A stretch of 64,000 nt of DNA from assembly GCF_047948215.1 (NCBI RefSeq), contig NC_134456.1, positions 85,698,515 to 85,762,514 of the forward strand. The letters are read 5' to 3'. Positions 26,385 to 64,000 of the stretch are shown one piece after another. Both the position numbers and the translations under genes were made by a program. The notes under the pieces are model-generated. The model searched no databases and was not told the origin of the DNA. It saw only the letters and a list, made by a program, of their open reading frames with translations. Within the stretch, counting starts at the first letter, position 1. Every line of letters starts with the position of its first letter. Origin of the DNA: Lycorma delicatula (taxonomy: Eukaryota > Arthropoda > Insecta > Hemiptera > Fulgoridae).

Positions 26385-27352
26385 TTTTTTTTTTTTTTTT
26401 TTTTGTCTTCAGTCACTTGACTGGTTTGATGCAGCTCTCCAAGATTCCCTATCTAGTGCTAGTCGTTTCATTTCAGTATACCCTCTACATCCTACATCCC
26501 TAACAATTTGTTTTACATATTCCAAACGTGGCCTGCCTACACAATTTTTCCCTTCTACCTGTCCTTCCAAAATTAAAGCGACTATTCCAGGATGCCTTAG
26601 TATGTGGCCTATAAGTCTGTCTCTTCTTTTAACTATATTTTTCCAGATGGTTCTTTCTTCATCTATTTGCCGCAATACCTCCTCATTTGTCACTTTATCC
26701 ACCCATCTGATTTTTAACATTCTCCTATAGCACCACATTTCAAAAGCTTCTAACCTTTTCTTCTCAGATACTCCGATTGTCCAAGTTTCACTTCCATATA
26801 AAGCGACACTCCAAACATACACTTTCAAAAATCTTTTCCTGACATTTAAATTAATTTTTGATGTAAACAGCTTATATTTCTTACTGAAGGCTCGTTTAGC
26901 TTGTGCTATTCGGCATTTTATATCGCTCCTGCTTCGTCCATCTTTAGTAATTCTACTTCCCAAATAACAAAATTCTTCTACCTCCATAATCTTTTCTCCT
27001 CCTATTTTCACATTCAGTGGTCCATCTTTGTTATTTCTACTACATTTCATTACTTTTGTTTTGTTCTTGTTTATTTTCATGCAATAGTTCTTGCGTAGGA
27101 CTTCATCTATGCCGTTCATTGTTTCTTCTAAATCCTTTTTATTCTCGGCTAGAATTACTATATCATCAGCAAATCGTAGCATCTTTATCTTTTCACCTTG
27201 TACTGTTACTCCGAATCTAAATTGTTCTTTAACATCATTAACTGCTAGTTCCATGTAAAGATTAAAAAGTAACGGAGATAGAGAACATCCTTGTCGGACT
27301 CCCTTTCTTATTATGGCTTCTTTCTTATGTTCTTCAATTGCTACTGTTGGAA
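26385..27352 (-). mobile_element. LINE-J, 5'-truncated insertion
   Basis: A minus-strand LINE fragment ends in poly-A (poly-T at 26385-26403). Just inside is the tail motif TCACTTGACTGGTTTGATGC, shared with 28260-28300 and 38355-38385. GGAAGAT at 26378-26384 and 27349-27355 may be a short target duplication. Confidence 0.85.
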
Positions 27353-43677: not shown

Positions 43678-43701
43678 TAATAATAATAATAATAATAATA
43701 A
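43678..43701 (+). repeat. (TAA)8 at the left edge of the array
   Basis: Eight TAA units, then a T and the first base of element A. This is the shortest of the five TAA arrays and the boundary with unrelated DNA. Confidence 0.95.
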
Positions 43702-43702
43702 T

Positions 43703-43807
43703 GCCCTGAGGTAGATAATCCCCACGTCCGGAACACAACATCTATGTTCCACGTCCAGGGCGGCAACAGCTGTACCTTTGTACATCACATATAGCTGGCT
43801 AACGGGG
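43703..43807 (+). ncRNA. HDV-like ribozyme, element A
   Basis: Numbering from G43703: P1 is 1-6 (GCCCTG) with 54-59 (CAGGGC). P2 is 18-21 (CCCC) with 102-105 (GGGG). P3 is 22-25 with 49-52 (ACGT/ACGT). C26-C27 could pair with G60-G61 as P1.1. P4 is 65-69 (CAGCT) with 91-95 (AGCTG). The strand joining P4 to P2 is GCTAAC (96-101), so C97 would be the catalytic cytosine. GGCAACA follows P1 as in hepatitis delta RNA. An extra stem (28-33/43-48) lies within the P3 loop. P1 has 6 pairs and P2 only 4, shorter than usual. Cleavage would fall between T43702 and G43703. Confidence 0.65.
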
Positions 43808-44061
43808 TTCCGAGTAAATTCCTCGGTTATGCATTGTTGAGTTTGACCTGGTTCCAACTTCAGGTCACTAAACGGACTGGATTTTTGGCTACCTGCAGGA
43901 AATGGAGTAACATATGATTTTGGAAATGGATTCATACCATTCTTAGAGCTGGCGATGTGGCGGCCAGGGTCAATGTTATTGCAGGTGTAACGGAGACCCT
44001 TCCGTTGTCCACATGCCCCCTGCGATGGCAAGCATGTAGTTAAGGTGCCCATGTTCGGAGC

Positions 44062-44247
44062 ATGGGAGCCCTGAAAGCTTCGGTGTGTAGGGGCCTGGAG
44101 TCAGTGCAGAGACTGCGCATCCGCTCTCTGCCAGGACATATGCCGGTTCCACCGGAGTACCGGATAGGACCTCCAAGGTTAGTAGCCCTGGAGTGGGGGT
44201 GTACCCCGGCGGCTAGCCTTGCTACAGAAGGGATCCACTGTTCATGA
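44062..44247 (+). CDS. upstream ORF overlapping ORF1 start (ATGA)
   Basis: A 61-codon frame in the leader begins MGALKASVCRGLESVQRLRI and ends TPAASLATEGIHCS. Its TGA overlaps the ORF1 ATG as ATGA, at 44244-44247. Equivalent frames with the same overlap exist in C and D; in B a one-base deletion removes it. The DNA here is far more conserved between A and C than ORF1 is. The product may be unimportant, and the arrangement could serve termination-reinitiation onto ORF1. Confidence 0.4.
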   Translation: MGALKASVCRGLESVQRLRIRSLPGHMPVPPEYRIGPPRLVALEWGCTPAASLATEGIHCS

Positions 44248-45896
44248 ATTTTTCTGAACAAACTAACGTGGCAGAGGGTGCACGTAAACACCCTCGTTTG
44301 GAAACCGCCGATTCGCCACAAGCGAAGCGGAAAAAAAGTAAGGAGAGTGATAGAATTAGAAAAGATGCTGATAAAATCAGTAAAGATTTGAGAAAAGCTT
44401 TGTTTGGTAATAATGTTCCCAAACCAAGATTTTTGGTCATTACAAAAGAGAATGGTAACTTCCAAAAGGTAAGTCCATTCTTAATTGCTAGAGAGATTAC
44501 AAATTGTGCTGGTGGTCCTGTCAAGGATATCCGTAAGACGTTTAACGGATTACATGTCGAAACTATAAACGACATGCAAAGTCAGAAAGTCCAGGCGTTG
44601 AAGAAGATCGGTGAATTTGCGGTTACTGTCCAACCGCATAGTACACTTAATTCATCTAGAGGAGTTGTTGTTTGCCGTGATCTTCTTAACTGTACTGAAG
44701 AAGAAATAGTGCAGGAAATGTCTAGTCAGGGAGTGACACATTGTCGCAGACTTTCTATGAGACGAAATGGTGAGATTCTTCCTTCGGCCTCTCATGTATT
44801 GACATTCAATAGGCCAAGTCTTCCTGAAAAGGTACGAGCTGGCATCCATCGGCTTGATGTACGGGCATTTATTCCGCAGCCGATGAGATGTTTTAGATGT
44901 CAACGTTTCGGACACACTGCCGCTAGATGTGAAGCGCAGGAAATTTGTATATGCGGAATGAAGATTCATGAGGGTGATCCATGTAAAGACCCTCCAGTCT
45001 GCATTAACTGTAAAGGGCACCATAACTGTCGATCCAGGAACTGCCCAGTATACAAATCAGAAACAGCCATTCAGGAGGTTAAAACGCTTCAAAAAGTCAG
45101 CTACCCTGAAGCGAGGAAGATTGTAAACCTACGTACACCTAGACCATCGACTTCATACGCAGAAGCAGCTGCTGCTCCCCCCACACCTAAAATCAACGTG
45201 GAGCAGTTGCTTAATACGATGGCGCCAAGTCTCGCGACAATGATAGAAAGAATCATTGATTCCAAGATCGAGTCGACTCATCAGATACAACAAAGTAAAC
45301 ATGAGAAGGCTCATTCCCGGACTGACGTCGCCGACAGAAGACCCGTACCAGCTCAGTTTAAAAAACCGGCAAAATCTTCGATTATAACTCCAGCAATAGA
45401 CGTAATGAAGAAAAATCTTGATTTATCCGACAAAGATCTAAAGATCATCCCGACGACGAGTCATATAGCTAAGGATACTGTGACAAGAGTACAGGAAAAA
45501 TCTGCGTCAACCAAAATGGAGGTGCAAGTAACTATCCAAAAAGCACCGGACACAGACGATATTAAAACTGTACCTACAGAGGCCCCAAAAGCTCAGAGAA
45601 CAACTGTGGCGAGAGCATCTGTATCAGCCGGTCCAAGCACAGCCTTAGACATAGAATCGAGTTCATCAGCCGCCGAAAGTGCATCGGTTGCAAGTTTAGA
45701 CTCAATTGCAACGATGCTCACAGCACCATTGAAGCTTTCATCACCTGATGTAAGCCGGCGAACGTCATTGGCGTCAGAAAGAGAAGACGATGCCATGTCC
45801 GAAGCCTCAGACACTCTGTCGTCGGAAGTTGAGGCCGTTCGCAGAATGGAAAAGCGGTGTAAAAAGGGTTGGCCGAAAGGAAAGCCTAGAAAGTGA
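44244..45896 (+). CDS. ORF1 protein (Gag-like, three zinc knuckles), element A
   Basis: A 550-residue RNA-binding ORF1 protein of I-like LINEs, expected to coat the element RNA. The N-terminus is basic (about residues 15-55, with KRKKSKESDRIRK). An RRM-like or gag-like fold spans about 60-210, with FLVITKENGNF and SRGVVVCRDLLNCTEEEIV. Three knuckles follow: C216, C219, H224, C229; C235, C237, H242, C247; and C253, C256, H260, C267 (CINCKGHHNC ... CPVYKSE). The rest is low-complexity and acidic to serine-rich, ending in a basic KKGWPKGKPRK tail shared with C and D. The start is the first ATG after the upstream frame. The frame is intact. It has no RT partner in the same element and would need one in trans. 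Confidence 0.92.
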   Translation: MNFSEQTNVAEGARKHPRLETADSPQAKRKKSKESDRIRKDADKISKDLRKALFGNNVPKPRFLVITKENGNFQKVSPFLIAREITNCAGGPVKDIRKTFNGLHVETINDMQSQKVQALKKIGEFAVTVQPHSTLNSSRGVVVCRDLLNCTEEEIVQEMSSQGVTHCRRLSMRRNGEILPSASHVLTFNRPSLPEKVRAGIHRLDVRAFIPQPMRCFRCQRFGHTAARCEAQEICICGMKIHEGDPCKDPPVCINCKGHHNCRSRNCPVYKSETAIQEVKTLQKVSYPEARKIVNLRTPRPSTSYAEAAAAPPTPKINVEQLLNTMAPSLATMIERIIDSKIESTHQIQQSKHEKAHSRTDVADRRPVPAQFKKPAKSSIITPAIDVMKKNLDLSDKDLKIIPTTSHIAKDTVTRVQEKSASTKMEVQVTIQKAPDTDDIKTVPTEAPKAQRTTVARASVSAGPSTALDIESSSSAAESASVASLDSIATMLTAPLKLSSPDVSRRTSLASEREDDAMSEASDTLSSEVEAVRRMEKRCKKGWPKGKPRK

Positions 45897-46906
<1,010 letters not shown>

Positions 46907-47344
46907 TTCCGAGTAAATTCCTCGGTTATGCATTGTTAAGTTTGACCTGGTTCCAACTTCAGGTCACTAAACGGACTGGATCTATGGCTACCTGCAGGAA
47001 ATGGAGTAATATATGATTTTGGAAATGGATTCATACCATTCTTAGAGCTGGCGATGTGGCGGCCAGGGTCAATGTTATTGCAGGTGTAACGGAGACCCTT
47101 CCGTTGTCCACATGCCCCCTGCGATGGCAAGCATGTAGCAATGGTGCCCATGTATGTCGGTGCATGGGAGCTCTGAAAGCTTCGGTGAGTAGGAGCCTGG
47201 AGTCAGTGCAGAGACTGCGCATCCGCTCTCTGCCAGGACATATGCCGGTTCCACCGGAGTACCGGATAGGACCTCCAAGGTTAGTAGCCCTGGAGTGGGG
47301 GTGTACCCCGGCGGCTAGCCTTGCTACAGAAGGGATCAATGTTC

Positions 47345-48997
47345 ATGAATTTTCCTGAACAAACTCACGTGGCAGAGGGTGCACGTAAACACCCTCGTTT
47401 AGAAACCGCCGATTCGCCACAAGCGAAGCGGAAAAAAAGTAAAGAGAGTGATAGAATTAGAAAAGATGCTGATAAAATCAGTAAAGATTTGAGAAAAGCT
47501 TTGTTTGGTAATAATGTTCCCAAACCAAGATTTTTGGTCATTACAAAAGAGAATGGTAACTTCCAAAAGGTAAGTCCATTCTTAATTGCTAGAGAGATTA
47601 CAAATTGTGCTGGTGGTCCTGTCAAGGATATCCGTAAGACGTTTAACGGATTACATGTCGAAACTATAAACGACATGCAAAGTCAGAAAGTCCAGGCGTT
47701 GAAGAAGATCGGTGAATTTGCGGTTACTGTCCAACCGCATAGTACACTCAATTCATCTAGAGGAGTTGTTGTTTGCCGTGATCTTCTTAACTGTACTGAA
47801 GAAGAAATAGTGCAGGAAATGTCTAGTCAGGGAGTGACACATTGTCGCAGACTTTCTATGAGACGAAATGGTGAGATTCTTCCTTCGGCCTCTCATGTAT
47901 TGACATTCAATAGGCCAAGTCTTCCTGAAAAGGTACGAGCTGGCATCCATCGGCTTGATGTACGGGCATTTATTCCGCAGCCGATGAGATGTTTTAGGTG
48001 TCAACGTTTCGGACACACTGCCGCTAGATGTGAAGCGCAGGAAATTTGTATATGCGGATTGAAGATACATGAGGGTGATCCATGTAAAGACCCTCCAGTC
48101 TGCATTAATTGTAAAGGGCACCATAACTGTCGATCCAGGAACTGCCCAGTATACAAATCAGAAACAGCCATTCAGGAGGTTAAAACGCTTCAAAAAGTCA
48201 GCTACCCTGAAGCGAAGAAGATTGTTAACCTACGTACACCTAGACCATCGACTTCATACGCAGAAGCAGCTGCTGCTCCCCCCACACCTAAAATCAACGT
48301 GGAGCAGTTGCTTAATACGATGGCGCCAAGTCTCGCGACAATAATAGAAAGAATCATTGATTCCAAGATCGAGTCTGCTCAACAGATACAACAAAGTAAA
48401 CATGAGAAGGCTCAATCCCGGACTGACGTCGCCGACAGAAGACCCGCACCAGCGCAGTTTAAAAAACCGGCAAAATCCTCGATTATATCTCCAGCAATAG
48501 ACGTAATGAAGAAAAATCTTGATCTATCCAACAAAGATCTAAAGATCACCCCGACGACGAGTCATATAGTTAAGGATACTGTGACAAGAGTACAGGAAAA
48601 ATCTGCGTCAACCAAAATGGAGGTGCAAGTAACTATCGAAAAAGCACCAGACACAGACGATATTAAAACCGTACCTACAGAGGCCCCAAAAGCTCAGAGA
48701 ACAACTGTGGCGAGAGCATCTGTATCAGCCGGCCCAAGCACAGCCTTAGATATCGAATCGAGTTCATCAGCCGCCGAAAGTGCATCGGTTGCAAGTTTAG
48801 ACTCAATTGCAACGATGCTCACAGCACCATTGAAGCTTTCATCACCTGATGTAAGCCGGCGAACGTCATTGGCGTCGGAAAGAGAAGACGAAGCCATGTC
48901 CGAAGCCTCAGACACTCTGTCGTCGGAAGTTGAGGCCGTTCGCAGGATGGAAAAGCGGTGTAAAAAAGGTTGGCCGAAAGGAAAGCCTAGGCGGTAA
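47345..48997 (+). CDS. ORF1 protein (Gag-like, three zinc knuckles), element B
   Basis: A 550-residue intact frame, very close to that of A, with scattered substitutions such as GLKIHEGDPC for GMKIHEGDPC and a final RR for RK. It has the same basic N-terminus, gag-like fold, three knuckles and KKGWPKGKPR tail. The start is MNFPEQTHV. A second ATG two codons upstream (47339, MFMNF) also exists here, created by the leader change that breaks the upstream frame. Keeping the frame open in two diverged ORF1-only copies suggests selection on the protein, or very recent spread. Confidence 0.92.
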   Translation: MNFPEQTHVAEGARKHPRLETADSPQAKRKKSKESDRIRKDADKISKDLRKALFGNNVPKPRFLVITKENGNFQKVSPFLIAREITNCAGGPVKDIRKTFNGLHVETINDMQSQKVQALKKIGEFAVTVQPHSTLNSSRGVVVCRDLLNCTEEEIVQEMSSQGVTHCRRLSMRRNGEILPSASHVLTFNRPSLPEKVRAGIHRLDVRAFIPQPMRCFRCQRFGHTAARCEAQEICICGLKIHEGDPCKDPPVCINCKGHHNCRSRNCPVYKSETAIQEVKTLQKVSYPEAKKIVNLRTPRPSTSYAEAAAAPPTPKINVEQLLNTMAPSLATIIERIIDSKIESAQQIQQSKHEKAQSRTDVADRRPAPAQFKKPAKSSIISPAIDVMKKNLDLSNKDLKITPTTSHIVKDTVTRVQEKSASTKMEVQVTIEKAPDTDDIKTVPTEAPKAQRTTVARASVSAGPSTALDIESSSSAAESASVASLDSIATMLTAPLKLSSPDVSRRTSLASEREDEAMSEASDTLSSEVEAVRRMEKRCKKGWPKGKPRR

Positions 48998-49772
<775 letters not shown>

Positions 49773-50023
49773 TTCCGAGTGTTGTTTCTCGGATATACTT
49801 TCTTCGGTCGATTTACATCCATAGGCCGAATTACAGGACTGGACTTTACGGCCACCTGCAGATATGACATTTTTAACGATTACGGAAATGGATTTATACC
49901 GCCTTTAGAGCTGGCGATGTGGCGGCCACGGTCAAAGTTATTTGCAGGTGTAACGGAGACCTTTCGTCGTCCACATGCCCCCTGCGATGGCAAGCATGTA
50001 GTTAAGGTGCCCATGTTCGGAGC

Positions 50024-50209
50024 ATGGGAGCCCTGAAAGCTTCGGTGTGTAGGGGCCTGGAGTCAGTGCAGAGACTGCGCATCCGCTCTCTGCCAGGACA
50101 TATGCCGGTTCCACCGGAGTACCGGAACGGACCTCCAGGGTTGGTAGCCCTGGAGTGGGGGTGTACCCCGGCGGCTAGCCTTACTACAGAAGGGATTTTT
50201 TGTTCATGA
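50024..50209 (+). CDS. upstream ORF overlapping ORF1 start (ATGA), element C
   Basis: A 61-codon frame homologous to that in A (MGALKASVCRGLESVQRLRI ... LTTEGIFCS). Its stop overlaps the ORF1 ATG by four bases, at 50206-50209. Confidence 0.4.
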   Translation: MGALKASVCRGLESVQRLRIRSLPGHMPVPPEYRNGPPGLVALEWGCTPAASLTTEGIFCS

Positions 50210-51738
50210 ATTTTCCTGAACAAACCAACGTGGCAGAGGGTGCACGTAAACACCCTCGTTTAGAACCAGCCGTTTCGCCTGAGGCAAAACGGAGGAAGAG
50301 TACGGAGAGTAAGAAGATAGAGATTGAGGCTAGAAAAAGCTTACAGAAGGCTTTTTTTAAAAGTAGTAATGTACCGAAACCTAAATATTTGGTCATTACA
50401 AAGGAGGATGGAAATTTCTCGAGGGTGAGTCCTTTTCTCATCGCTCGAGAGATAAACAAATGTGCTGGAGGCCCTGTAAAGGAAATACGGAAAACTTTTA
50501 CGGGACTTCATGTAGAGACTGTTAATGATATACAGTCTCAGAAGATTTTAGGGCTGAAGAAAATTGGAGAGCTAGCGGTACGCGTTGATCCCCACGGCAC
50601 GCTCAACACCTCAAGGGGTGTTGTGGTCTGTCGGGATCTTTTAAACTGTTCGGAGCAAGAGATTGTAGAGGAGCTGGCAGCACAAGGAGTAATAGAGTGC
50701 CGTCGGTTAAACATGAGAAGGAACGGTGAGGTCTTACCCTCGGCTTCTCATGTCCTTACTTTCAACCGGCCTACTTTGCCAGAAAAGATAAGAGCGGGGA
50801 TTCACCGTTTGGATGTGCGGGCATTTGTCCCACAGCCGATGAGGTGCTTCAAGTGCCAACGCTTTGGCCACACCGCTCTTAGATGCGAAAGACCGCAAAT
50901 ATGCGTGTGCGGTGAAGAGGTGCATGAGGGAGAGCCATGTAAAGAGCCTCCTACATGCATAAACTGCAAAGGAGCGCATTCTTGTAGATCAAGGAATTGT
51001 CCTGTCTACAAAGATGAGGTAGCTGTGCAGGAAGTAAAAACCCTGCAAAAAGTCAGCTACTTCGATGCAAAAAAAATAGTTAACGCCCGTAAGCCTAGAG
51101 CAGCAACATCTTATGCTCAGGCTGCGGCTACTGTTCCTGCTCCTGCTCCGATTGCTGTAGATGAGGTACAAATTATAAATAAACTTGCTCCCACTTTGGC
51201 TAACATGATTGAGAGGATCATCGAAAACAAGATGAAACCTCTTGGCAATAAAGAACTTGTTAAGCCAAAGATAGTGATACAGCCTGCTGAAGATAAGTCG
51301 ATAAAAGTGAAAGTTGCTCCTCCAGAAAAGAAAACGGACAATAAACCTGAATGTCAAGTCCGTCTCAGCGAGATCCTCGATGAAAAGAAAAAGGCGATAC
51401 CTACAGAGTCTGTTATGGAGGCTCCCAAGCCTCCTGTAACTGAAGTGGCCTCTAAGCCTCAGAGGCCACAAAAAATCACACAGGGGGGGCGAGTGTCCCC
51501 CCTCCCACAGGCGGTGACCGGTGCGACCCCCGTGTTGGGGAGCGGGCAGGTTGTCGCCTCTCAATCGGCGCCTGAAACCGGCGCCGATCCATGCCCGTCG
51601 TCGTCGGCGGCTTCGGTGGTCTCCGATACGGAGACCGGAAGCTTTACAGGCGACGACCTTCTCCGCGAACACGATGCTGTTCGCAGGATGGAGAAGAAAA
51701 GGAAAAAGGGATGGCCGAAAGGAAAACCCAGGCAATAA
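50206..51738 (+). CDS. ORF1 protein (Gag-like, three zinc knuckles), element C
   Basis: A 510-residue intact ORF1, clearly homologous to A and B but strongly diverged, about two thirds identical by eye and mostly in the gag-like and knuckle regions. The knuckles read CFKCQRFGHTALRC, CVCGEEVHEGEPC and CINCKGAHSCRSRNC. The C-terminal third is different from A (proline, lysine and glutamate-rich), but the last residues KKRKKGWPKGKPRQ are conserved. I chose the ATG of MNFPEQTNV, matching A; a TTG two codons upstream is not a credible start. ORF2 follows in the same reading frame after two stops. Confidence 0.93.
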   Translation: MNFPEQTNVAEGARKHPRLEPAVSPEAKRRKSTESKKIEIEARKSLQKAFFKSSNVPKPKYLVITKEDGNFSRVSPFLIAREINKCAGGPVKEIRKTFTGLHVETVNDIQSQKILGLKKIGELAVRVDPHGTLNTSRGVVVCRDLLNCSEQEIVEELAAQGVIECRRLNMRRNGEVLPSASHVLTFNRPTLPEKIRAGIHRLDVRAFVPQPMRCFKCQRFGHTALRCERPQICVCGEEVHEGEPCKEPPTCINCKGAHSCRSRNCPVYKDEVAVQEVKTLQKVSYFDAKKIVNARKPRAATSYAQAAATVPAPAPIAVDEVQIINKLAPTLANMIERIIENKMKPLGNKELVKPKIVIQPAEDKSIKVKVAPPEKKTDNKPECQVRLSEILDEKKKAIPTESVMEAPKPPVTEVASKPQRPQKITQGGRVSPLPQAVTGATPVLGSGQVVASQSAPETGADPCPSSSAASVVSDTETGSFTGDDLLREHDAVRRMEKKRKKGWPKGKPRQ

Positions 51739-51747
51739 TTTAATTAA

Positions 51748-52602
51748 AAATTAAAAATTAGCGAGTCGATTGTACAATGGAACATCAATGGATGTTTTTC
51801 AAACATCCATGAGCTCCAACGCTTGGTACATGACGTAGACCCGATTTGTATATGTCTGCAAGAAACGCATTTCCGCCGAAATGAAAATTTTAAATTAAAA
51901 GGATTCCATATATTTCGGCGAGATCAACCGCCAAATGTAAGAGTTAGAGGTGGAGTAGCTATATTAACATCGACTAGAGCTACCACCGAAGCGGTTGTTC
52001 TAAACACCAACCTACAAGCGGTCGCCGTTAGAATGAAGCGACCGCTTAAGATCACTGTGTGCAGCATATACTTACCGAATTACGATTGGAATAAGGATGA
52101 CATAGAAAGATTAATTTCCGAGCTTCCCCCACCTGTTTTACTGGTGGGTGATTTTAACGCTCATAATTCTCTCTGGGGATCGGATCGAGTAGATCCCCGT
52201 GGAAGAGAACTGGAAGGGTTCCTGATGAATTCTGATCTTATTATTTTAAATGACGGATCAGGAACCTTTTTCAATGCCAGAGATGGATCGACGTCCTGTA
52301 TAGATCTTGCACTCATAAGCGGATCGATAGCACCGAGGTACAGCTTCCATGTTATAGACGATCTGCATGGAAGCGATCATTTCCCGGTGCAAATTGTAAC
52401 TGATGTTACTAGAACAATATATCCCATCCCTAAAAGATGGTTATTTGAAAAGGCAGACTGGACGAGCTTCACAGCTAGAACGATGCTCCCAGAAACAACT
52501 GGAGTTATCGGAGACGATGTCGACGCCATAACAAATGCAATAATCGAGTCGGCATCGAGATATATTCCCAAAACATCTGGGAAACTTACAAAGAAACCGT
52601 AA
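51748..52602 (+). pseudogene. ORF2 endonuclease part, element C
   Basis: An APE-type endonuclease that would nick the target. Catalytic segments are in order: IVQWNINGC (asparagine), CICLQETHF (glutamate), LLVGDFNAHNSLWGS (aspartate and asparagine), SCIDLALIS and GSDHFPV (aspartate and histidine). All appear intact. The open region begins right after a stop at 51745-51747, in the same frame as ORF1. It has no ATG before the WNINGC motif; the first in-frame methionine is after the QET motif. The frame ends at TAA 52600-52602, just before the conserved VPWWND segment. Confidence 0.85.
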
Positions 52603-54942
52603 GAAACTTACAAAGAAACCGTTCCATGGTGGAACGATGAAATAAGTGAAGCTATAAAAAGAAAGAAAAGGGCGTATAATGCCTTTAAGAAGCGTCCTAG
52701 TATAGAAAATCTTGTTGCCTTTAAGAAATACAGGGCGTATGCAAAACGTGTTATGATAGATTCGAAAAAACGATCCTGGCAGCAATACGTGTCATCCATT
52801 GACAAAACTACTACTGCATCAGATGTTTGGAGGAAAGTGAAGGCGATTTGTGGGCGTAATGATTTTACTCCCATAACTAGCCTTCAAGATGAAGATGAAA
52901 TAAAAGATACTCCATATGAAATTGCAGAGCTGTTATCCAATCATTTCGAAAAGGCCAGCAAAACGGCCAACTACGAGGAAGGTTTTCGAACCAAAAAAGA
53001 AGAACACGAAGGTCTACTAAATTTTGGAACTGAGTATAATTACTCATATAATGTACCATTTAAAATGGAAGAATTCGCGAAGGCGTTGGAAAAATCAGGT
53101 AACACAGCTGCTGGTCCGGATGAAATCCACTATAATATGATCAGGCAGCTGAATACCACTGCAAAGTGTAGACTATTAGAACTTTATAATAAAATATGGC
53201 GGGATGGAACGTACCCGCAGCAGTGGAAAAAAGCTCATGTTGTTCCAGTACCAAAGAAAAATAAAAATTTAACAGACCCCAATAGCTACCGTCCTATTTC
53301 TTTGACGTGTGCTATGGGGAAAATATTGGAAAAAATGATTAATAATCGACTCGTCTGGGTTTTGGAAAAAGAAAACCTGATATCATCGTATCAAGCAGGT
53401 TTTCGACAATACCATTCTACCACTGATCAAATGATCAGCTTAGAGGACATTATATATAACAGCTTTATTACAAGGAAACATTGTGTCGGAGTCTTCTTTG
53501 ATCTTCAGAAGGCTTTCGATATGACCTGGCGTCATGGTATAATGCTCCAGTTACATGAATGGGGCATTCGTGGCAATTTGCCTATACTGCTCAGCAACTA
53601 CATGAATGACCGTACCTTCCAAGTACGCGTCAACAACGAATATTCATGTGAAAGAATCTTGGAAAATGGCATACCGCAAGGTTCGCCGTTGAGCGGTACC
53701 TTGTTTACCATTGCCATTAATAAATTGATATTAGCCATTCCAGTAGAAATCAGCAAAAGCGTCTATGTTGATGATCTGGCAATCGTATATGCCAGCAACA
53801 AGACTGCTATAGTGAGGTACAAATTGCAACGAGCGATCAATGCTCTAAATGAAGTTGCAAGGAATACAGGATTCCAATTCTCACCAGAAAAAACGTGCTG
53901 TGTACACTTTTGTAGGAAGAGAATTCCTCATCAAAGTCCTGCTCTGACAATTGATGATAATCCAATACAATATAAAGACAGTGTAAGGTATTTAGGACTA
54001 GTATTGGATAAATCCCTCACATGGGGATTACATATACAGGACTTAAGTGATAGATGCAAAAGAGCCCTAAACATTATAAAATGTTTATCGAACCTAAATT
54101 GGGGCTCAGGAAAAGAGACATTATTGAGACTGTATAAAGCATTGGTTCAATCTAAACTAGACTACGGATGTATCGTATATTCATCCGCTAGAAAGTCGCA
54201 CTTAAGAAAGTTAGACGTAGTTCATAATAGCGGAATAAGATACGCAACAGGTGCTTTCCGCACGAGTCCGGCGGCTAGTCTGATGTCTGAAGCCGGAATA
54301 ATGCCACTACATTATAGAAGAGAGATCCTCTTGTTAAGATATGCAGCAAATATATGGGCTTTCCCTGCCCATATAAATAATAAATTGTTTATGAATCATC
54401 CCATGGCTGCATTATACGAACGTCGTGCTACCTATTCCAGACCAGCCGGAATTAGGTACCACGAATTAAGAAGGAAATATGAAATTGCTATACCAGAGAC
54501 ACTAGCAATTTCTACTAGAGAAATACCGCCATGGCTCTTGCCAGCGGTAAATACAAGTTTGGATCTCTCTCAAGGAGAATTAAAAAAGAAACCAGCAGTG
54601 ATCATCCAGCAGGAATTTTTAGCAACCGTCAGTAGTTACGAAGAACATATTAGAATTTATACTGACGGTTCTAAAACCGAACATGGTGTTGGATGCTCGA
54701 TACATGTAAATGAAGAAGCCCACTCTTGGAGACTGCCAGATGTGGCCAGTGTCTACACGGCAGAACTCACTGCAATTCAGCAAGCTCTTCGCTACACTGA
54801 ACACTATTGCGAAGAGAGAGTGCTAATATGTTCCGACTCATTAAGTGCACTTGTCGCAATTCGGAACAAGAACATTAAGGATGTCCTAATTGCAAACATC
54901 CTGTCCATTTTATACGTTCTAAAACAACGAAGAACATATTAG
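52603..54942 (+). pseudogene. ORF2 reverse transcriptase and partial RNase H, element C
   Basis: The frame resumes after the stop in the same phase with ETVPWWNDEISEAI. RT motifs: AGPDEIHYNMI; WKKAHVVPVPKK and SYRPISLTCAMGK; QAGFRQYHST; GVFFDLQKAFDMTW (A); GIPQGSPLSGTLF (B); SVYVDDLAIVY (C); FSPEKTCCVHF (D); YLGLVLDKSLTW (E). RNase H begins with IYTDGSKTEHGVGC, then YTAELTAIQQAL and ICSDSLSALVAI. It runs into a 289-bp tandem duplication and stops at 54942. The catalytic YVDD is intact, but the protein would lack the last RNase H acid and the C-terminal CCHC. Confidence 0.9.
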
Positions 54943-55216
54943 AATTTATACTGACGGTTCTAAAACCGAACATGGTGTTGGATGCTCGATACATGTAAAT
55001 GAAGAAGCCCACTCTTGGAGACTGCCAGATGTGGCCAGTGTCTACACGGCAGAACTCACTGCAATTCAGCAAGCTCTTCGCTACACTGAACACTATTGCG
55101 AAGAGAGAGTGCTAATATGTTCCGACTCATTAAGTGCACTTGTCGCAATTCGGAACAAGAACATTAAGGATGTCCTAATTGCAAACATCCTGTCCATTTT
55201 ATACGTTCTAAAACAA
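54639..55216 (+). repeat. 289-bp tandem duplication inside RNase H, element C
   Basis: The unit 54639-54927 is repeated at 54928-55216. The junction falls at the shared tetranucleotide ACGA. Since 289 is not a multiple of three, it shifts the frame. Element D has a single unit. Confidence 0.95.
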
Positions 55217-55738
55217 CGAGGACAGCGATGCGTATTTGTATGGACTCCGGGGCATGCTGGTATTACAGGTAATGAAATCGCAGACGAAGCTGCCAGAAAG
55301 GCAACAGTCTGCGATGATTTGGATGCATTTCCTGTAAGAGTGGCAGATATTAAAAACCGTCTAACAAATATAGTAAGAAACAAGTGGAACGCTGAATGGA
55401 GGAGTTTAAATACAAAATTAAACTCAGTTAAAACTTCTCCTTATAAATGGAAAAGCGACTTTAAATTGACTCGCCGTGAACAAGTAGCGGTGACCAGACT
55501 TAGAATCGGTCACACGCGATTAACAAATTTATATTTGTTAACCGGCGAAGTGAGACCAATGTGCGGTGTTTGCAATAAAACACTGACAACCAAGCATCTA
55601 ATAGAAGAGTGTACCATATATGAGGACCTCAGAAAGAGGTTCTGTTTTACAAATAATATTAGTGCTGATCTGGATAATGGAAATGAAGAAAATATAGTTG
55701 CATTTTTACACGCCAGTGGACTTCTTAAAAGTCTGTAA
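55031..55738 (+). pseudogene. ORF2 C-terminal RNase H and CCHC part, element C
   Basis: Downstream of the duplication the frame continues in another phase: YTAELTAIQQALRYTEHYCE again, then VWTPGHAGITGNEIADEAAR (final RNase H residues), a basic stretch, and the C-terminal zinc motif CGVCNKTLTTKHLIEEC (C-x2-C-x7-H-x4-C). Apart from the phase shift, it matches element D. Confidence 0.9.
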
Positions 55739-56545
<807 letters not shown>

Positions 56546-56796
56546 TTCCGAGTGTTGTTTCTCGGATATACTTTTTTCGGTCGATTTACATCTATAGGCC
56601 GAATTACAGGACTGGACTTTACGGCCACCTGCAGATATGACATTATTAATGATTACGGAAATGGATTAATACCGCCGTTAGAGCTGGCGATGTGGCGGCC
56701 ACGGTCAAAGTTATTTGCAGGTGTAACGGAGACCTTTCGTCGTCCACATGCCCCCTGCGATGGCAAGCATGTAGTTAAGGTGCCCATGTTCGGAGC

Positions 56797-56982
56797 ATGG
56801 GAGCCCTGAAAGCTTCGGTGTGTAGGGGCCTGGAGTCAGTGCAGAGACTGCGCATCCGCTCTCTGCCAGGACATATGCCGGTTCCACCGGAGTACCGGAA
56901 CGGACCTCCAGGGTTGGTAGCCCTGGAGTGGGGGTGTACCCCGGCGGCTAGCCTTACTACAGAAGGGATTACTTGTTCATGA
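56797..56982 (+). CDS. upstream ORF overlapping ORF1 start (ATGA), element D
   Basis: A 61-codon leader frame identical in layout to that of C, ending TEGITCS. The stop overlaps the ORF1 ATG at 56979-56982. Confidence 0.4.
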   Translation: MGALKASVCRGLESVQRLRIRSLPGHMPVPPEYRNGPPGLVALEWGCTPAASLTTEGITCS

Positions 56983-58511
56983 ATTTTCCTGAACAAACCA
57001 ACGTGGCAGAGGGTGCACGTAAACACCCTCGTTTAGAGCCGGCTGTTTCGCCTGAAGCGAAACGCCGAAAGAGCACGGAGAGTAAGAAGATAGAAATTGA
57101 GGCTAGAAAAAGCTTACAAAAGGCTTTTTTTAAAAGTAGTAATGTACCGAAACCTAAATATTTGGTCATTACAAAGGAGGATGGAAATTTCTCGAGGGTG
57201 AGTCCCTTTCTCATCGCTCGGGAAATAAACAAATGTGCTGGAGGCCCTGTAAAGGAAATACGGAAAACTTTTACGGGACTTCATGTAGAGACTGTTAATG
57301 ATATACAGTCTCAGAAGATTTTAGGGCTGAAGAAAATTGGAGAGCTAGCGGTACGCGTTGATCCCCACGGCACGCTCAACACCTCAAGGGGTGTTGTGGT
57401 CTGTCGGGATCTTTTAAACTGTTCGGAGCAAGAGATTGTAGAGGAGCTGGCAGCACAAGGAGTAATAGAGTGCCGTCGGTTAAACATGAGAAGGAACGGT
57501 GAGGTCTTACCCTCGGCTTCTCATGTCCTTACTTTCAACCGGCCTACTTTGCCAGAAAAGATAAGAGCGGGGATTCACCGTTTGGATGTGCGGGCATTTG
57601 TCCCACAGCCGATGAGGTGCTTCAAGTGCCAACGCTTTGGCCACACCGCTCTTAGATGCGAAAGACCGCAAATATGCGTGTGCGGTGAAGAGGTGCATGA
57701 GGGAGAGCCATGTAAAGAGCCTCCTACATGCATAAACTGCAAAGGAGCGCATTCTTGTAGATCAAGGAATTGTCCTGTCTACAAAGATGAGGTAGCTGTG
57801 CAGGAAGTAAAAACCCTGCAAAAAGTCAGCTACTTCGATGCAAAAAAAATAGTTAACGCCCGTAAGCCTAGAGCAGCAACATCTTATGCTCAGGCTGCGG
57901 CTACTGTTCCTGCTCCTGCTCCGATTGCTGTAGATGAGGTACAAATTATAAATAAACTTGCTCCCACTTTGGCTAACATGATTGAGAGGATCATCGAAAA
58001 CAAGATGAAACCTCTTGGCAATAAAGAACTTGTTAAGCCAAAGATAGTGATACAGCCTGCTGAAGATAAGTCGATAAAAGTGAAAGTTGCTCCTCCAGAA
58101 AAGAAAACGGACAATAAACCTGAATGTCAAGTCCGTCTCAGCGAGATCCTCGATGAAAAGAAAAAGGCGATACCTACAGAGTCTGTTATGGAGGCTCCCA
58201 AGCCTCCTGTAACTGAAGTGGCCTCTAAGCCTCAGAGGCCACAAAAAATCACACAGGGGGGGCGAGTGTCCCCCCTCCCACAGGCGGTGACCGGTGCGAC
58301 CCCCGTGTTGGGGAGCGGGCAGGTTGTCGCCTCTCAATCGGCGCCTGAAACCGGCGCCGATCCATGCCCGTCGTCGTCGGCGGCTTCGGTGGTCTCCGAT
58401 ACGGAGACCGGAAGCCTTACAGGCGACGACCTTCTCCGCGAACACGATGCTGTTCGCAGGATGGAGAAGAAAAGGAAAAAGGGATGGCCGAAAGGAAAAC
58501 CCAGGCAATAA
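56979..58511 (+). CDS. ORF1 protein (Gag-like, three zinc knuckles), element D
   Basis: A 510-residue intact frame, almost identical to C; the visible protein change is GSLTGDD for GSFTGDD. It has three knuckles, a basic N-terminus and a KKGWPKGKPRQ tail. At DNA level several silent differences cluster near 57037-57082 while the next kilobase is nearly unchanged, hinting at recombination or conversion between copies. The role is to bind element RNA and probably to bring in ORF2 protein. Confidence 0.93.
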   Translation: MNFPEQTNVAEGARKHPRLEPAVSPEAKRRKSTESKKIEIEARKSLQKAFFKSSNVPKPKYLVITKEDGNFSRVSPFLIAREINKCAGGPVKEIRKTFTGLHVETVNDIQSQKILGLKKIGELAVRVDPHGTLNTSRGVVVCRDLLNCSEQEIVEELAAQGVIECRRLNMRRNGEVLPSASHVLTFNRPTLPEKIRAGIHRLDVRAFVPQPMRCFKCQRFGHTALRCERPQICVCGEEVHEGEPCKEPPTCINCKGAHSCRSRNCPVYKDEVAVQEVKTLQKVSYFDAKKIVNARKPRAATSYAQAAATVPAPAPIAVDEVQIINKLAPTLANMIERIIENKMKPLGNKELVKPKIVIQPAEDKSIKVKVAPPEKKTDNKPECQVRLSEILDEKKKAIPTESVMEAPKPPVTEVASKPQRPQKITQGGRVSPLPQAVTGATPVLGSGQVVASQSAPETGADPCPSSSAASVVSDTETGSLTGDDLLREHDAVRRMEKKRKKGWPKGKPRQ

Positions 58512-58520
58512 TTTAATTAA

Positions 58521-59375
58521 AAATTAAAAATTAGCGAGTCGATTGTACAATGGAACATCAATGGATGTTTTTCAAACATCCATGAGCTCCAACGCTTGGT
58601 ACATGACGTAGACCCGATTTGTATATGTCTGCAAGAAACGCATTTCCGCCGAAATGAAAATTTTAAATTAAAAGGATTCCATATATTTCGGCGAGATCAA
58701 CCACCAAATGTAAGAGTTAGAGGTGGAGTAGCTATATTAACATCGACTAGAGCTACCACCGAAGCGGTTGTTCTAAACACCAACCTACAAGCGGTCGCCG
58801 TTAGAATGAAGCGACCGCTTAAGATCACTGTGTGCAGCATATACTTACCGAATTACGATTGGAATAAGGATGACATAGAAAGATTAATTTCCGAGCTTCC
58901 CCCACCTGTTTTACTGGTGGGTGATTTTAACGCTCATAATTCTCTCTGGGGATCGGATCGAGTAGATCCCCGTGGAAGAGAACTGGAAGGGTTCCTGATG
59001 AATTCTGATCTTATTATTTTAAATGACGGATCAGGAACCTTTTTCAATGCCAGAGATGGATCGACGTCCTGTATAGATCTTGCACTCATAAGCGGATCGA
59101 TAGCACCGAGGTACAGCTTCCATGTTATAGACGATCTGCATGGAAGCGATCATTTCCCGGTGCAAATTGTAACTGATGTTACTAGAACAATATATCCCAT
59201 CCCTAAAAGATGGTTATTTGAAAAGGCAGACTGGACGAGCTTCACAGCTAGAACGATGCTCCCAGAAACAACTGGAGTTATCGGAGACGATGTCGACGCC
59301 ATAACAAATGCAATAATCGAGTCGGCATCGAGATATATTCCCAAAACATCTGGGAAACTTACAAAGAAACCGTAA
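58521..59375 (+). CDS. ORF2 endonuclease part, element D
   Basis: It has the same APE-type motifs as C: WNINGC, QETHF, GDFNAHN, IDLALIS, SDHFPV, with no lesion inside the domain. It is in frame with ORF1, separated by TAA, two codons and TAA (58509-58520), and has no early ATG. It closes with TAA at 59373-59375 between two copies of GAAACTTACAAAGAAACCGT. If that stop is absolute, only a free endonuclease of about 280 residues could be made. Confidence 0.8.
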   Translation, partial: KLKISESIVQWNINGCFSNIHELQRLVHDVDPICICLQETHFRRNENFKLKGFHIFRRDQPPNVRVRGGVAILTSTRATTEAVVLNTNLQAVAVRMKRPLKITVCSIYLPNYDWNKDDIERLISELPPPVLLVGDFNAHNSLWGSDRVDPRGRELEGFLMNSDLIILNDGSGTFFNARDGSTSCIDLALISGSIAPRYSFHVIDDLHGSDHFPVQIVTDVTRTIYPIPKRWLFEKADWTSFTARTMLPETTGVIGDDVDAITNAIIESASRYIPKTSGKLTKKP

Positions 59376-62222
59376 GAAACTTACAAAGAAACCGTTCCAT
59401 GGTGGAACGATGAAATAAGTGAAGCTATAAAAAGAAAGAAAAGGGCGTATAATGCCTTTAAGAAGCGTCCTAGTATAGAAAATCTTGTTGCCTTTAAGAA
59501 ATACAGGGCGTATGCAAAACGTGTTATGATAGATTCGAAAAAACGATCCTGGCAGCAATACGTGTCATCCATTGACAAAACTACTACTGCATCAGATGTT
59601 TGGAGGAAAGTGAAGGCGATTTGTGGGCGTAATGATTTTACTCCCATAACTAGCCTTCAAGATGAAGATGAAATAAAAGATACTCCATATGAAATTGCAG
59701 AGCTGTTATCCAATCATTTCGAAAAGGCCAGCAAAACGGCCAACTACGAGGAAGGTTTTCGAACCAAAAAAGAAGAACACGAAGGTCTACTAAATTTTGG
59801 AACTGAGTATAATTACTCATATAATGTACCATTTAAAATGGAAGAATTCGCGAAGGCGTTGGAAAAATCAGGTAACACAGCTGCTGGTCCGGATGAAATC
59901 CACTATAATATGATCAGGCAGCTGAATACCACTGCAAAGTGTAGACTATTAGAACTTTATAATAAAATATGGCGGGATGGAACGTACCCGCAGCAGTGGA
60001 AAAAAGCTCATGTTGTTCCAGTACCAAAGAAAAATAAAAATTTAACAGACCCCAATAGCTACCGTCCTATTTCTTTGACGTGTGCTATGGGGAAAATATT
60101 GGAAAAAATGATTAATAATCGACTCGTCTGGGTTTTGGAAAAAGAAAACCTGATATCATCGTATCAAGCAGGTTTTCGACAATACCATTCTACCACTGAT
60201 CAAATGATCAGCTTAGAGGACATTATATATAACAGCTTTATTACAAGGAAACATTGTGTCGGAGTCTTCTTTGATCTTCAGAAGGCTTTCGATATGACCT
60301 GGCGTCATGGTATAATGCTCCAGTTACATGAATGGGGCATTCGTGGCAATTTGCCTATACTGCTCAGCAACTACATGAATGACCGTACCTTCCAAGTACG
60401 CGTCAACAACGAATATTCATGTGAAAGAATATTGGAAAATGGCATACCGCAAGGTTCGCCGTTGAGCGGTACCTTGTTTACCATTGCCATTAATAAATTG
60501 ATATTAGCCATTCCAGTAGAAATCAGCAAAAGCGTCTATGTTGATGATCTGGCAATCGTATATGCCAGCAACAAGACTGCTATAGTGAGGTACAAATTGC
60601 AACGAGCGATCAATGCTCTAAATGAAGTTGCAAGGAATACAGGATTCCAATTCTCACCAGAAAAAACGTGCTGTGTACACTTTTGTAGGAAGAGAATTCC
60701 TCATCAAAGTCCTGCTCTGACAATTGATGATAATCCAATACAATATAAAGACAGCGTAAGGTATTTAGGACTAGTATTGGATAAATCCCTCACATGGGGA
60801 TTACATATACAGGACTTGAGTGATAGATGCAAAAGAGCCCTAAACATTATAAAATGTTTATCGAACCTAAATTGGGGCTCAGGAAAAGAGACATTATTGA
60901 GACTGTATAAAGCATTGGTTCAATCTAAACTAGACTACGGATGTATCGTATATTCATCCGCTAGAAAGTCGCACTTAAGAAAGTTAGACGTAGTTCATAA
61001 TAGCGGAATAAGATACGCAACAGGTGCTTTCTGCACGAGTCCGGCGGCTAGTCTGATGTCTGAAGCCGGAATAATGCCACTACATTATAGAAGAGAGATC
61101 CTCTTGTTAAGATATGCAGCAAATATATGGGCTTTCCCTGCCCATATAAATAATAAATTGTTTATGAATCATCCCATGGCTGCATTATACGAACGTCGTG
61201 CTACCTATTCCAGACCAGCCGGAATTAGGTACCACGAATTAAGAAGGAAATATGAAATTGCTATACCAGAGACACTAGCAATTTCTACTAGAGAAATACC
61301 GCCATGGCTCTTGCCAGCGGTAAATACAAGTTTGGATCTCTCTCAAGGAGAAATAAAAAAGAAACCAGCAGTGATCATCCAGCAGGAATTTTTAGCAACC
61401 GTCAGTAGTTACGAAGAACATATTAGAATTTATACTGACGGTTCTAAAACCGAACATGGTGTTGGATGCTCGATATATGTAAATGAAGAAGCCCACTCTT
61501 GGAGACTGCCAGATGTGGCCAGTGTCTACACGGCAGAACTCACTGCAATTCAGCAAGCTCTTCGCTACACTGAACACTATTGCGAAGAGAGAGTGCTAAT
61601 ATGTTCCGACTCATTAAGTGCACTTGTCGCAATTCGGAACAAGAACATTAAGGATGTCCTAATTGCAAACATCCTGTCCATTTTATACGTTCTAAAACAA
61701 CGAGGACAGCGATGCGTATTTGTATGGACTCCGGGGCATGCTGGTATTACAGGTAATGAAATCGCAGACGAAGCTGCCAGAAAGGCGACAGTCTGCGATG
61801 ATTTGGATGCATTTCCTGTAAGAGTGGCAGATATTAAAAACCGTCTAACAAATATAGTAAGAAACAAGTGGAACGCTGAATGGAGGAGTTTAAATACAAA
61901 ATTAAACTCAGTTAAAACTTCTCCTTATAAATGGAAAAGCGACTTTAAATTGACTCGCCGTGAACAAGTAGCGGTGACCAGACTTAGAATCGGTCACACG
62001 CGATTAACAAATTTATATTTGTTAACCGGCGAAGTGAGACCAATGTGCGGTGTTTGCAATAAAACACTGACAACCAAGCATCTAATAGAAGAGTGTACCA
62101 TATATGAGGACCTCAGAAAGAGGTTCTGTTTTACAAATAATATTAGTGCTGATCTGGATAATGGAAATGAAGAAAATATAGTTGCATTTTTACACGCCAG
62201 TGGACTTCTTAAAAGTCTGTAA
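59376..62222 (+). CDS. ORF2 reverse transcriptase, RNase H and CCHC part, element D
   Basis: It is open from 59376; the first in-frame ATG is 59526, giving 898 residues. Counting from that ATG: RT motif A FFDLQKAFD around residue 250, motif B GIPQGSPLSG, motif C YVDD with its first aspartate at residue 340, motif E YLGLVLDKSL. RNase H starts at YTDGSKTEHG (aspartate at about 638) and continues AELTAIQQ, CSDSLSAL and GHAGITGNEIADEA. The C-terminal zinc motif starts at about residue 841 (CGVCNKTLTTKHLIEEC). All catalytic residues are present. The VPWWNDEIS linker normally joins endonuclease to RT in one polyprotein, so this is the second half of a single ORF2 cut by one stop. Confidence 0.92.
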   Translation, partial: ETYKETVPWWNDEISEAIKRKKRAYNAFKKRPSIENLVAFKKYRAYAKRVMIDSKKRSWQQYVSSIDKTTTASDVWRKVKAICGRNDFTPITSLQDEDEIKDTPYEIAELLSNHFEKASKTANYEEGFRTKKEEHEGLLNFGTEYNYSYNVPFKMEEFAKALEKSGNTAAGPDEIHYNMIRQLNTTAKCRLLELYNKIWRDGTYPQQWKKAHVVPVPKKNKNLTDPNSYRPISLTCAMGKILEKMINNRLVWVLEKENLISSYQAGFRQYHSTTDQMISLEDIIYNSFITRKHCVGVFFDLQKAFDMTWRHGIMLQLHEWGIRGNLPILLSNYMNDRTFQVRVNNEYSCERILENGIPQGSPLSGTLFTIAINKLILAIPVEISKSVYVDDLAIVYASNKTAIVRYKLQRAINALNEVARNTGFQFSPEKTCCVHFCRKRIPHQSPALTIDDNPIQYKDSVRYLGLVLDKSLTWGLHIQDLSDRCKRALNIIKCLSNLNWGSGKETLLRLYKALVQSKLDYGCIVYSSARKSHLRKLDVVHNSGIRYATGAFCTSPAASLMSEAGIMPLHYRREILLLRYAANIWAFPAHINNKLFMNHPMAALYERRATYSRPAGIRYHELRRKYEIAIPETLAISTREIPPWLLPAVNTSLDLSQGEIKKKPAVIIQQEFLATVSSYEEHIRIYTDGSKTEHGVGCSIYVNEEAHSWRLPDVASVYTAELTAIQQALRYTEHYCEERVLICSDSLSALVAIRNKNIKDVLIANILSILYVLKQRGQRCVFVWTPGHAGITGNEIADEAARKATVCDDLDAFPVRVADIKNRLTNIVRNKWNAEWRSLNTKLNSVKTSPYKWKSDFKLTRREQVAVTRLRIGHTRLTNLYLLTGEVRPMCGVCNKTLTTKHLIEECTIYEDLRKRFCFTNNISADLDNGNEENIVAFLHASGLLKSL

Positions 62223-64000
<1,778 letters not shown>

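Follow-up and report, generated by a model that had tools for sequence, protein, structure and literature searches.

A predicted HDV-like self-cleaving ribozyme at the 5' end of an I-group LINE common in TAA arrays of Lycorma delicatula

The LINE copies of the window

The stretch analysed here, called the window, comprises 64,000 nucleotides (nt) of the forward strand of Lycorma delicatula contig NC_134456.1 (positions 85,698,515 to 85,762,514) and is part of a 2.2-Gb genome in 14 contigs. It carries five copies, A to E, of a long interspersed nuclear element (LINE) whose first 105 nt, to judge from their sequence, are very probably a working self-cleaving ribozyme of the hepatitis delta virus (HDV)-like class that sets the exact 5' end of the element. 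The same 105-nt stretch opens all five elements, each time immediately 3' of AATAATAATAAT and in the same TAA phase. Nucleotides are counted below from G1, the first base of element A (43703). The elements, the ribozyme candidates and the TAA arrays are located as follows (ORF, open reading frame; RT, reverse transcriptase):

43703..46057, + strand: element A, with ORF1 (44244-45896) and a poly(A) tail, without ORF2
46802..49178, + strand: element B, ORF1 only
49668..56113, + strand: element C, with ORF1 and an interrupted ORF2 (endonuclease, RT, RNase H)
56441..62594, + strand: element D, with ORF1, endonuclease (58596-59375) and RT-RNase H (59526-62222)
43703..43807, + strand: HDV-like ribozyme candidate, copy A (G1 = 43703)
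46802..46906, + strand: ribozyme candidate, copy B, same 105 nt as A
49668..49772, + strand: ribozyme candidate, copy C, eight differences from A
56441..56545, + strand: ribozyme candidate, copy D, same 105 nt as C
63528..63632, + strand: ribozyme candidate, copy E, two differences from A; element E extends past the window end
46058..46801, + strand: uninterrupted TAA array between A and B
49179-49667, 56114-56440 and 62595-63527: other inter-element TAA arrays

The inter-element arrays measure 327-933 bp, and the TAA run before element A 27 bp.

Helix layout of the putative ribozyme

The paired (P), joining (J) and loop (L) segments of the candidate fold were placed on copy A, all on the + strand:

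43703..43708: P1 5' strand GCCCTG (nt 1-6), 6 bp; the proposed cut precedes 43703
43756..43761: P1 3' strand CAGGGC (nt 54-59), partner of 43703-43708
43712..43716: J1/2 TAGAT, complement of the L3-hairpin loop ATCTA (43740-43744), a possible kissing contact
43720..43723: P2 5' strand CCCC (nt 18-21), only 4 bp, with 43804-43807
43804..43807: P2 3' strand GGGG (nt 102-105), partner of 43720-43723
43724..43727: P3 5' strand ACGT (nt 22-25), 4 bp, or 3 if U25 is unpaired
43751..43754: P3 3' strand ACGT (nt 49-52), partner of 43724-43727
43728..43729: P1.1 CC (nt 26-27), pairing with GG 43762-43763
43762..43763: P1.1 GG (nt 60-61), adjoining P1 on its 3' side
43730..43750: extra L3 hairpin GGAACA/TGTTCC (nt 28-33/43-48), 9-nt loop; 5 bp in subfamilies C and F
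43767..43797: P4 stem-loop (nt 65-69/91-95; inner 70-73/78-81), with a 9-nt 3' bulge
43798..43803: J4/2 GCTAAC (nt 96-101), its second base being the putative catalytic C97 (43799)
43810..43826: hairpin CCGAG/CTCGG (nt 108-112/120-124) just 3' of P2; stem invariant and loop variable in the five copies

The pairing potential for P1, P1.1, P2, P3 and P4, in the order of the class, is present in all five window copies; among all pairs of their three distinct sequences, only A33-U43 is lost (A-C in copies C and D). The preliminary description of the window had reported the five 105-nt stretches, a P1 starting on the first element base, P1.1, P4, a GCTAAC strand with the catalytic C and an additional stem in the P3 loop. 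All were found again, every named pair being formable in the five copies, and these features, extra stem included, recur in three subfamilies. J4/2 GCUAAC and the GG/CC P1.1 both follow the class pattern of HDV-like ribozymes. Cleavage in this class occurs at the first nucleotide of P1 (PMC4908430).

Concerning L3, U25 stands in the place expected for the U.G reverse wobble, and the nearest G, G28, has another spacing and can pair with C48. The 5-bp complementarity between J1/2 and the L3 loop has a chance probability of between 3% (uniform) and 8% (shuffled). With C43, as in subfamilies C and F, the pair A33-U43 is lost and G9-C43 could form. The L3 hairpin may make the ribozyme a structural variant.

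Descriptor searches and chance

A strict HDV-type descriptor, composed after the sequence had been seen, gave five matches on the + strand of the window and none on the - strand, all of them element starts; the five copies, which form one family, were counted as one event. Background was estimated from 60 dinucleotide shuffles of the window minus its TAA runs (16 matches, 4.3 per Mb per strand), from 1,898 shuffles of element composition (34 matches, 2.2 per Mb) and from 2.47 Mb of strand at 141 other loci, mostly phage DNA (43 matches, 17 per Mb). Short-pattern matches in viral contigs were taken as chance and used solely as descriptor background. With 2.2-17 matches per Mb, the chance of a match at G1 itself is about 1 in 60,000 to 1 in 460,000, hindsight uncorrected. 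Decoy descriptors in which A, G or T replaced the catalytic C gave four matches on the + strand (8618, 14384, 50791, 57564), none, and two on the - strand, that is six in the window and none at element starts. A looser descriptor was uninformative (32 + 21 = 53 window matches).

A GC-rich leader could also fit a permissive descriptor by chance. The descriptor was indeed composed with the sequence in view, its decoys also find six window sites, and the nested minimum-energy fold is not significantly stable (z -1.45; 21 of 200 shuffles equally stable). Given the low probability of a match at G1 and the intact P1, P1.1, P2 and P3 across three subfamilies, however, we regard chance resemblance as scarcely credible.

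Conservation and variation of the 105 nt

Nine of the 105 positions vary among the five window copies: eight are unpaired, in line with the earlier remark that differences lie mostly in loops, and one (nt 43) closes the L3 hairpin. This avoidance of paired positions has a hypergeometric probability of 0.003, or of 0.04 with nt 74-77 taken as one event. Between A and C, 97 of the 105 bases are identical (92%, nt 1-105) and seven of the eight changes are unpaired. Identity then falls to 58% over nt 106-150 (45 nt), followed by 72% over the next 136 nt. The collapse of similarity described just after the fold is therefore visible in the drop from 92% to 58%, but conserved structure reaches about nt 124, since in the hairpin at nt 108-124 the loop varies and the stem is preserved. 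By comparison, ORF1 of A and C is 61% identical over 500 aligned codons, with an undefined synonymous divergence (dS) that is taken as saturation. The conservation of the 105 nt, retained also in the ORF1-only elements A and B, fits selection on the RNA; an exchange of 5' ends between families is a possible alternative source of the similarity.

A second conserved stretch lies in the 5' untranslated region (UTR):

43992..44243, + strand: second conserved 5' UTR block (nt 290-541), 96% identical between A and C, also present in the other copies

This block of about 250 nt has a stable fold in A (z -1.88). Because it is as conserved as the first, conservation alone does not imply cleavage. The 541-nt leader of element A contains 13 upstream ATGs, and the block could aid cap-independent translation of an uncapped RNA.

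For comparison across the genome, 31 distinct copies with their start and 40 nt upstream were used, eight loci being chosen for 105/105 identity; copies truncated beyond nt 3, with less than 40 nt upstream or with fewer than 105 bases were left out. C97, P1, P1.1, P2 and P3 are unchanged in 29 of the 31, except for nt 1-2 of L182. The remaining two, L204 and L177, have indels within the fold, the insertion of L204 lying inside P4. As a whole, the fold holds in three subfamilies, with P1, P1.1, P2 and P3 intact. Subfamily F (L192 and two of the six copies of a second list, described below) differs over the 105 nt from A at eight positions and from C at six.

In a search for more distant copies, no relative of the element was found in a collection of viral contigs, nor, by single-protein query, in a collection of genome contigs. 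An alignment query of the latter led to three distant LINE loci (L001-L003).

The 5' boundary in genome copies

At least 80 exact copies of the 105 nt (40 each of two sequences) occur among the matches listed; first-look candidates numbered 968 and 1,457, in sets that may overlap and are mostly unscored. The 5' ends of 20 among the 38 ORF2 matches listed were predicted and then read, blind to the outcome, and G1 was the exact start in 16 of them. In a second list, also of 38 ORF2 matches, all six copies read start at G1, which gives 22 of 26 ORF2-selected copies. All 39 junctions read for subfamily F show shared sequence from G1 onwards, with 34 distinct upstream 20-mers. These 39 come from 40 listed exact F copies (the 40th is L192) and were picked for 105/105 identity, so that they show the position of the boundary and not the frequency of complete copies.

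Target duplications were found at three loci. At L192/L163, a 13-bp duplication, AAAAAAAAGGAAG, abuts G1 and follows the poly(A), the As blurring its left edge. At L182/L152, an 11-bp duplication, AATATGTATAA, abuts a start with two altered bases, and at L180/L150 an exact 8-bp match ends 5 nt from G1, within an imperfect repeat of about 11 bp. The element therefore extends from G1 to a poly(A) end, and its insertion is not limited to TAA arrays. Taken together, the 22 of 26 starts, the 39 of 39 junctions and the 13-bp duplication abutting G1 identify G1 as the true 5' end of the element.

Eight of the 39 F junctions (L212-L250) directly follow at least three TAA units and 31 do not; a criterion based on the last 12 bases counts 11. 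Of note, G1 is preceded by T in 23 of these 31 insertions, vs. 31% T in their flanks (binomial 1e-6), as either a target preference or an untemplated addition. The 5' end had been placed at a TAA/element junction: G1 is indeed a real 5' end, but TAA is only its commonest setting in the window, some copies lying beside unrelated DNA.

The genome also holds another LINE family related to the present one (ORF2 of about 1,238 aa, loci L206-L211). Its 5' end begins CCCCGACGGGG in four of six copies. No HDV descriptor match was found at that end, one match being internal, at the same site in two of the six copies, and Rfam gave a single weak match (isrB, E 0.76). The sharp CCCCGACGGGGAG... 5' end of L206, L207, L210 and L211 can form successive hairpins.

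Since this family has a sharp end without an HDV-like match there, a fixed end needs no such ribozyme. Transcription could start at G1 from an internal promoter of the kind found in I-group LINEs, examples being the Drosophila I factor and jockey; the conserved 5' region would then hold promoter elements and the fold would be incidental. A fixed 5' end and conservation of the 105 nt are expected equally under this explanation. It is nevertheless improbable: changes avoid paired positions, all core HDV features stand in register from G1, and GCCCTG after AAT or unrelated DNA is, by eye, unlike an insect initiator.

TAA arrays

In 27 of 30 ORF2 loci, poly(A) is followed by a TAA run. An exact 14-base ribozyme start lies within 1.5 kb in 14 of the 30, and a decayed copy follows in a fifteenth, the head-to-tail order being ORF2 locus, poly(A), TAA run and next ribozyme start. 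All 40 exact A-type places listed are on a single contig (C1), where 15 of 39 neighbour gaps are shorter than 8 kb, vs. none of 21 for the F-type places on the same contig. The LINE is common in TAA arrays and not confined to them, and element insertion sites may be places where arrays lengthen.

In the I element, the 3' end consists of TAA repeats (PMC3747384). TAA as the own tail of the present element was rejected as a rule: the three copies outside arrays pass from poly(A) into a flank without TAA.

Proteins and classification

ORF2 has Pfam domains for an apurinic/apyrimidinic endonuclease (APE)-type endonuclease (PF14529/PF03372, in C and D), a reverse transcriptase (PF00078) and an RNase H (PF00075), and its relatives of about 1,225 aa share the same domain set. 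A CCHC motif was read by eye in the separate ORF1, for which no Pfam match was obtained. By this content (APE endonuclease, RT, RNase H and separate CCHC ORF1) the element is an I-group LINE. No internal stop was found in 37 of the 38 ORF2 matches listed, and nearly all frames measure 1,225-1,227 aa; since 37 of 38 are open, recent activity of the element is suggested. Most named protein relatives belong to insects and spiders; a few molluscs and a sea urchin are also represented.

Elements A and B are half-LINEs whose ORF1 is open and under constraint; its divergence between A and B is dN (nonsynonymous) 0.013 and dS 0.057. Their 3' tail hairpin resembles, by eye, that of C and D. Element C contains a 289-bp tandem duplication inside ORF2 (54638-55226), which D does not have. 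Elsewhere in the window, at 22769-23296 and 26409-27254 (minus), lie fragments of a mariner-type transposase and of another reverse transcriptase.

Does the fold still cut?

Several observations weigh against a working ribozyme. At the structural level, P2 has 4 bp, vs. at least 5 bp in the R2 consensus (PMC3774820), and no base clearly corresponds to the conserved L3 G, G28 being near but able to pair with C48. The latter point counts because a change of the conserved G in the jewel wasp R2 ribozyme left no detectable cleavage (PMC3774820). The P1 strand has other partners in the nested minimum-energy folds of copies C and E. P4 is the least constant helix, with pairs broken in subfamily F (T69C), L181 (G78A) and L201 (G95A). 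Four of the 20 blind-read ORF2-selected loci do not start at G1: L182 has altered nt 1-2, L184 is truncated at about nt 15 and L189 at about nt 30, and L191 gave no match.

As for model searches, Rfam (release 15) gave no match at gathering score over the whole window and none at E up to 10 in 43690-43830; over 43703-44300, its only two matches were both sub-threshold and unrelated. Of the searches suggested in the preliminary description, the descriptor thus singled out the five element starts, while no Rfam covariance model matched. In the covariation check that it also proposed for genome-wide copies, no pair with a two-sided change was counted in the five window copies (three distinct sequences), and no compensatory change was seen on reading 14 distinct sequences from the 31 copies. 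The core stems hardly vary, and covariation lends the helices no support.

The short P2, the unclear L3 G and the lack of covariation would suit a fold that derives from a ribozyme or resembles one, has lost the ability to cut and is kept because it binds reverse transcriptase or the ORF1 protein or serves translation. The second 5' UTR block is just as conserved, and a sow bug R2 sequence can be folded as a ribozyme yet showed no cleavage (PMC3774820). Such a role has little probability here, however, with P1, P1.1 and C97 kept in 29 of the 31 distinct copies (nt 1-2 of L182 excepted) and the 5' end of the element lying exactly at the cut site.

Proposed mechanism

If the 105 nt act as a ribozyme, a transcript would start upstream, by read-through from the TAA array, the preceding copy or flanking DNA, and its RNA would fold into the double pseudoknot. 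C97 would serve as general acid for a cut between nt -1 and G1, by the chemistry of the class. The element RNA released in this way would carry a 5'-OH and have G1 as its very first nucleotide. Since cleavage would free the RNA at G1, no promoter would be needed at the element's own start. Copies made by reverse transcription up to the released end would then have a 5' boundary that is fixed and complete. In an array, a read-through transcript would be cut at every G1.

A more specific proposal appears doubtful to us: a structural subtype in which P3 continues past a bulged CC (the strand of P1.1) into the 6-bp hairpin, the AUCUA loop of which pairs with UAGAU of J1/2 as a clamp comparable to P1.2, and in which arrayed ribozymes set the 3' (UAA)n tail of the upstream copy. 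If this were true, that tail would match its own target.

Comparison with known LINE ribozymes

LINEs of the R4/Dong clade have a restriction-like endonuclease and a single ORF, and Baggins (Loa clade) and L1Tc/ingi are I-group LINEs, a group that carries RNase H. The present element, with its APE endonuclease, RNase H and separate ORF1, does not have these features of R4/Dong. It also differs from R2 in occupying TAA arrays or dispersed sites instead of the 28S target, and in a longer L3 with its own hairpin.

HDV-like ribozymes have been described at the 5' ends of R2, R4, Dong, RTE, Baggins and L1Tc (PMC3774820, PMC11620745, PMC4035085, PMC4908430). For Dong (R4 clade) of Bombyx mori, the upstream cleavage product is 21 nt long and consists of seven TAA repeats (PMC3774820). 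Dong is thus likewise a LINE in TAA repeats with an HDV-like 5' ribozyme, although it starts TAA-GCTCCC (per primer), vs. AAT-GCCCTG here. The R2 ribozyme sits at the element junction or upstream of it, and in Drosophila cleavage occurs at the junction (PMC3774820). Arthropod R2 ribozymes share with the present one the same helices, a P1 of 6-7 bp and a variable P4; their published consensus has a P2 of at least 5 bp, some with mismatches, vs. 4 bp here (PMC3774820). A jewel wasp R2 ribozyme that cuts has an unusual L3 spacing (PMC3774820).

As in L1Tc, the 5' module is common to truncated non-autonomous relatives, here A and B alongside C and D. A TAA-array habit and an L3 hairpin are not mentioned for Baggins and L1Tc in the excerpts used (PMC4035085). 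In drz-Agam-2-1 of the mosquito, a peripheral P1.2 domain can bring P1 and P2 together (PMC4908430). The possible contact of J1/2 with the L3 loop could play this part here; P1.2 is, however, a helix inside J1/2, whereas in the present fold J1/2 has 11 nt and the extra helix lies in L3. A literature search on L3 hairpins in HDV-like ribozymes turned up none, from which absence from print is not claimed.

On its sequence, then, the predicted ribozyme differs from known LINE ribozymes by its APE/RNase H LINE, its 4-bp P2 and its L3 hairpin; to accommodate the hairpin, models used in searches for HDV-like ribozymes would have to be broadened. Through it, a high-copy LINE with RNase H joins the LINEs that apparently form their RNA 5' end by a ribozyme. 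Being common to dispersed and arrayed copies, the predicted ribozyme would make this genome a natural test of fixed 5' ends, array insertion and read-through.
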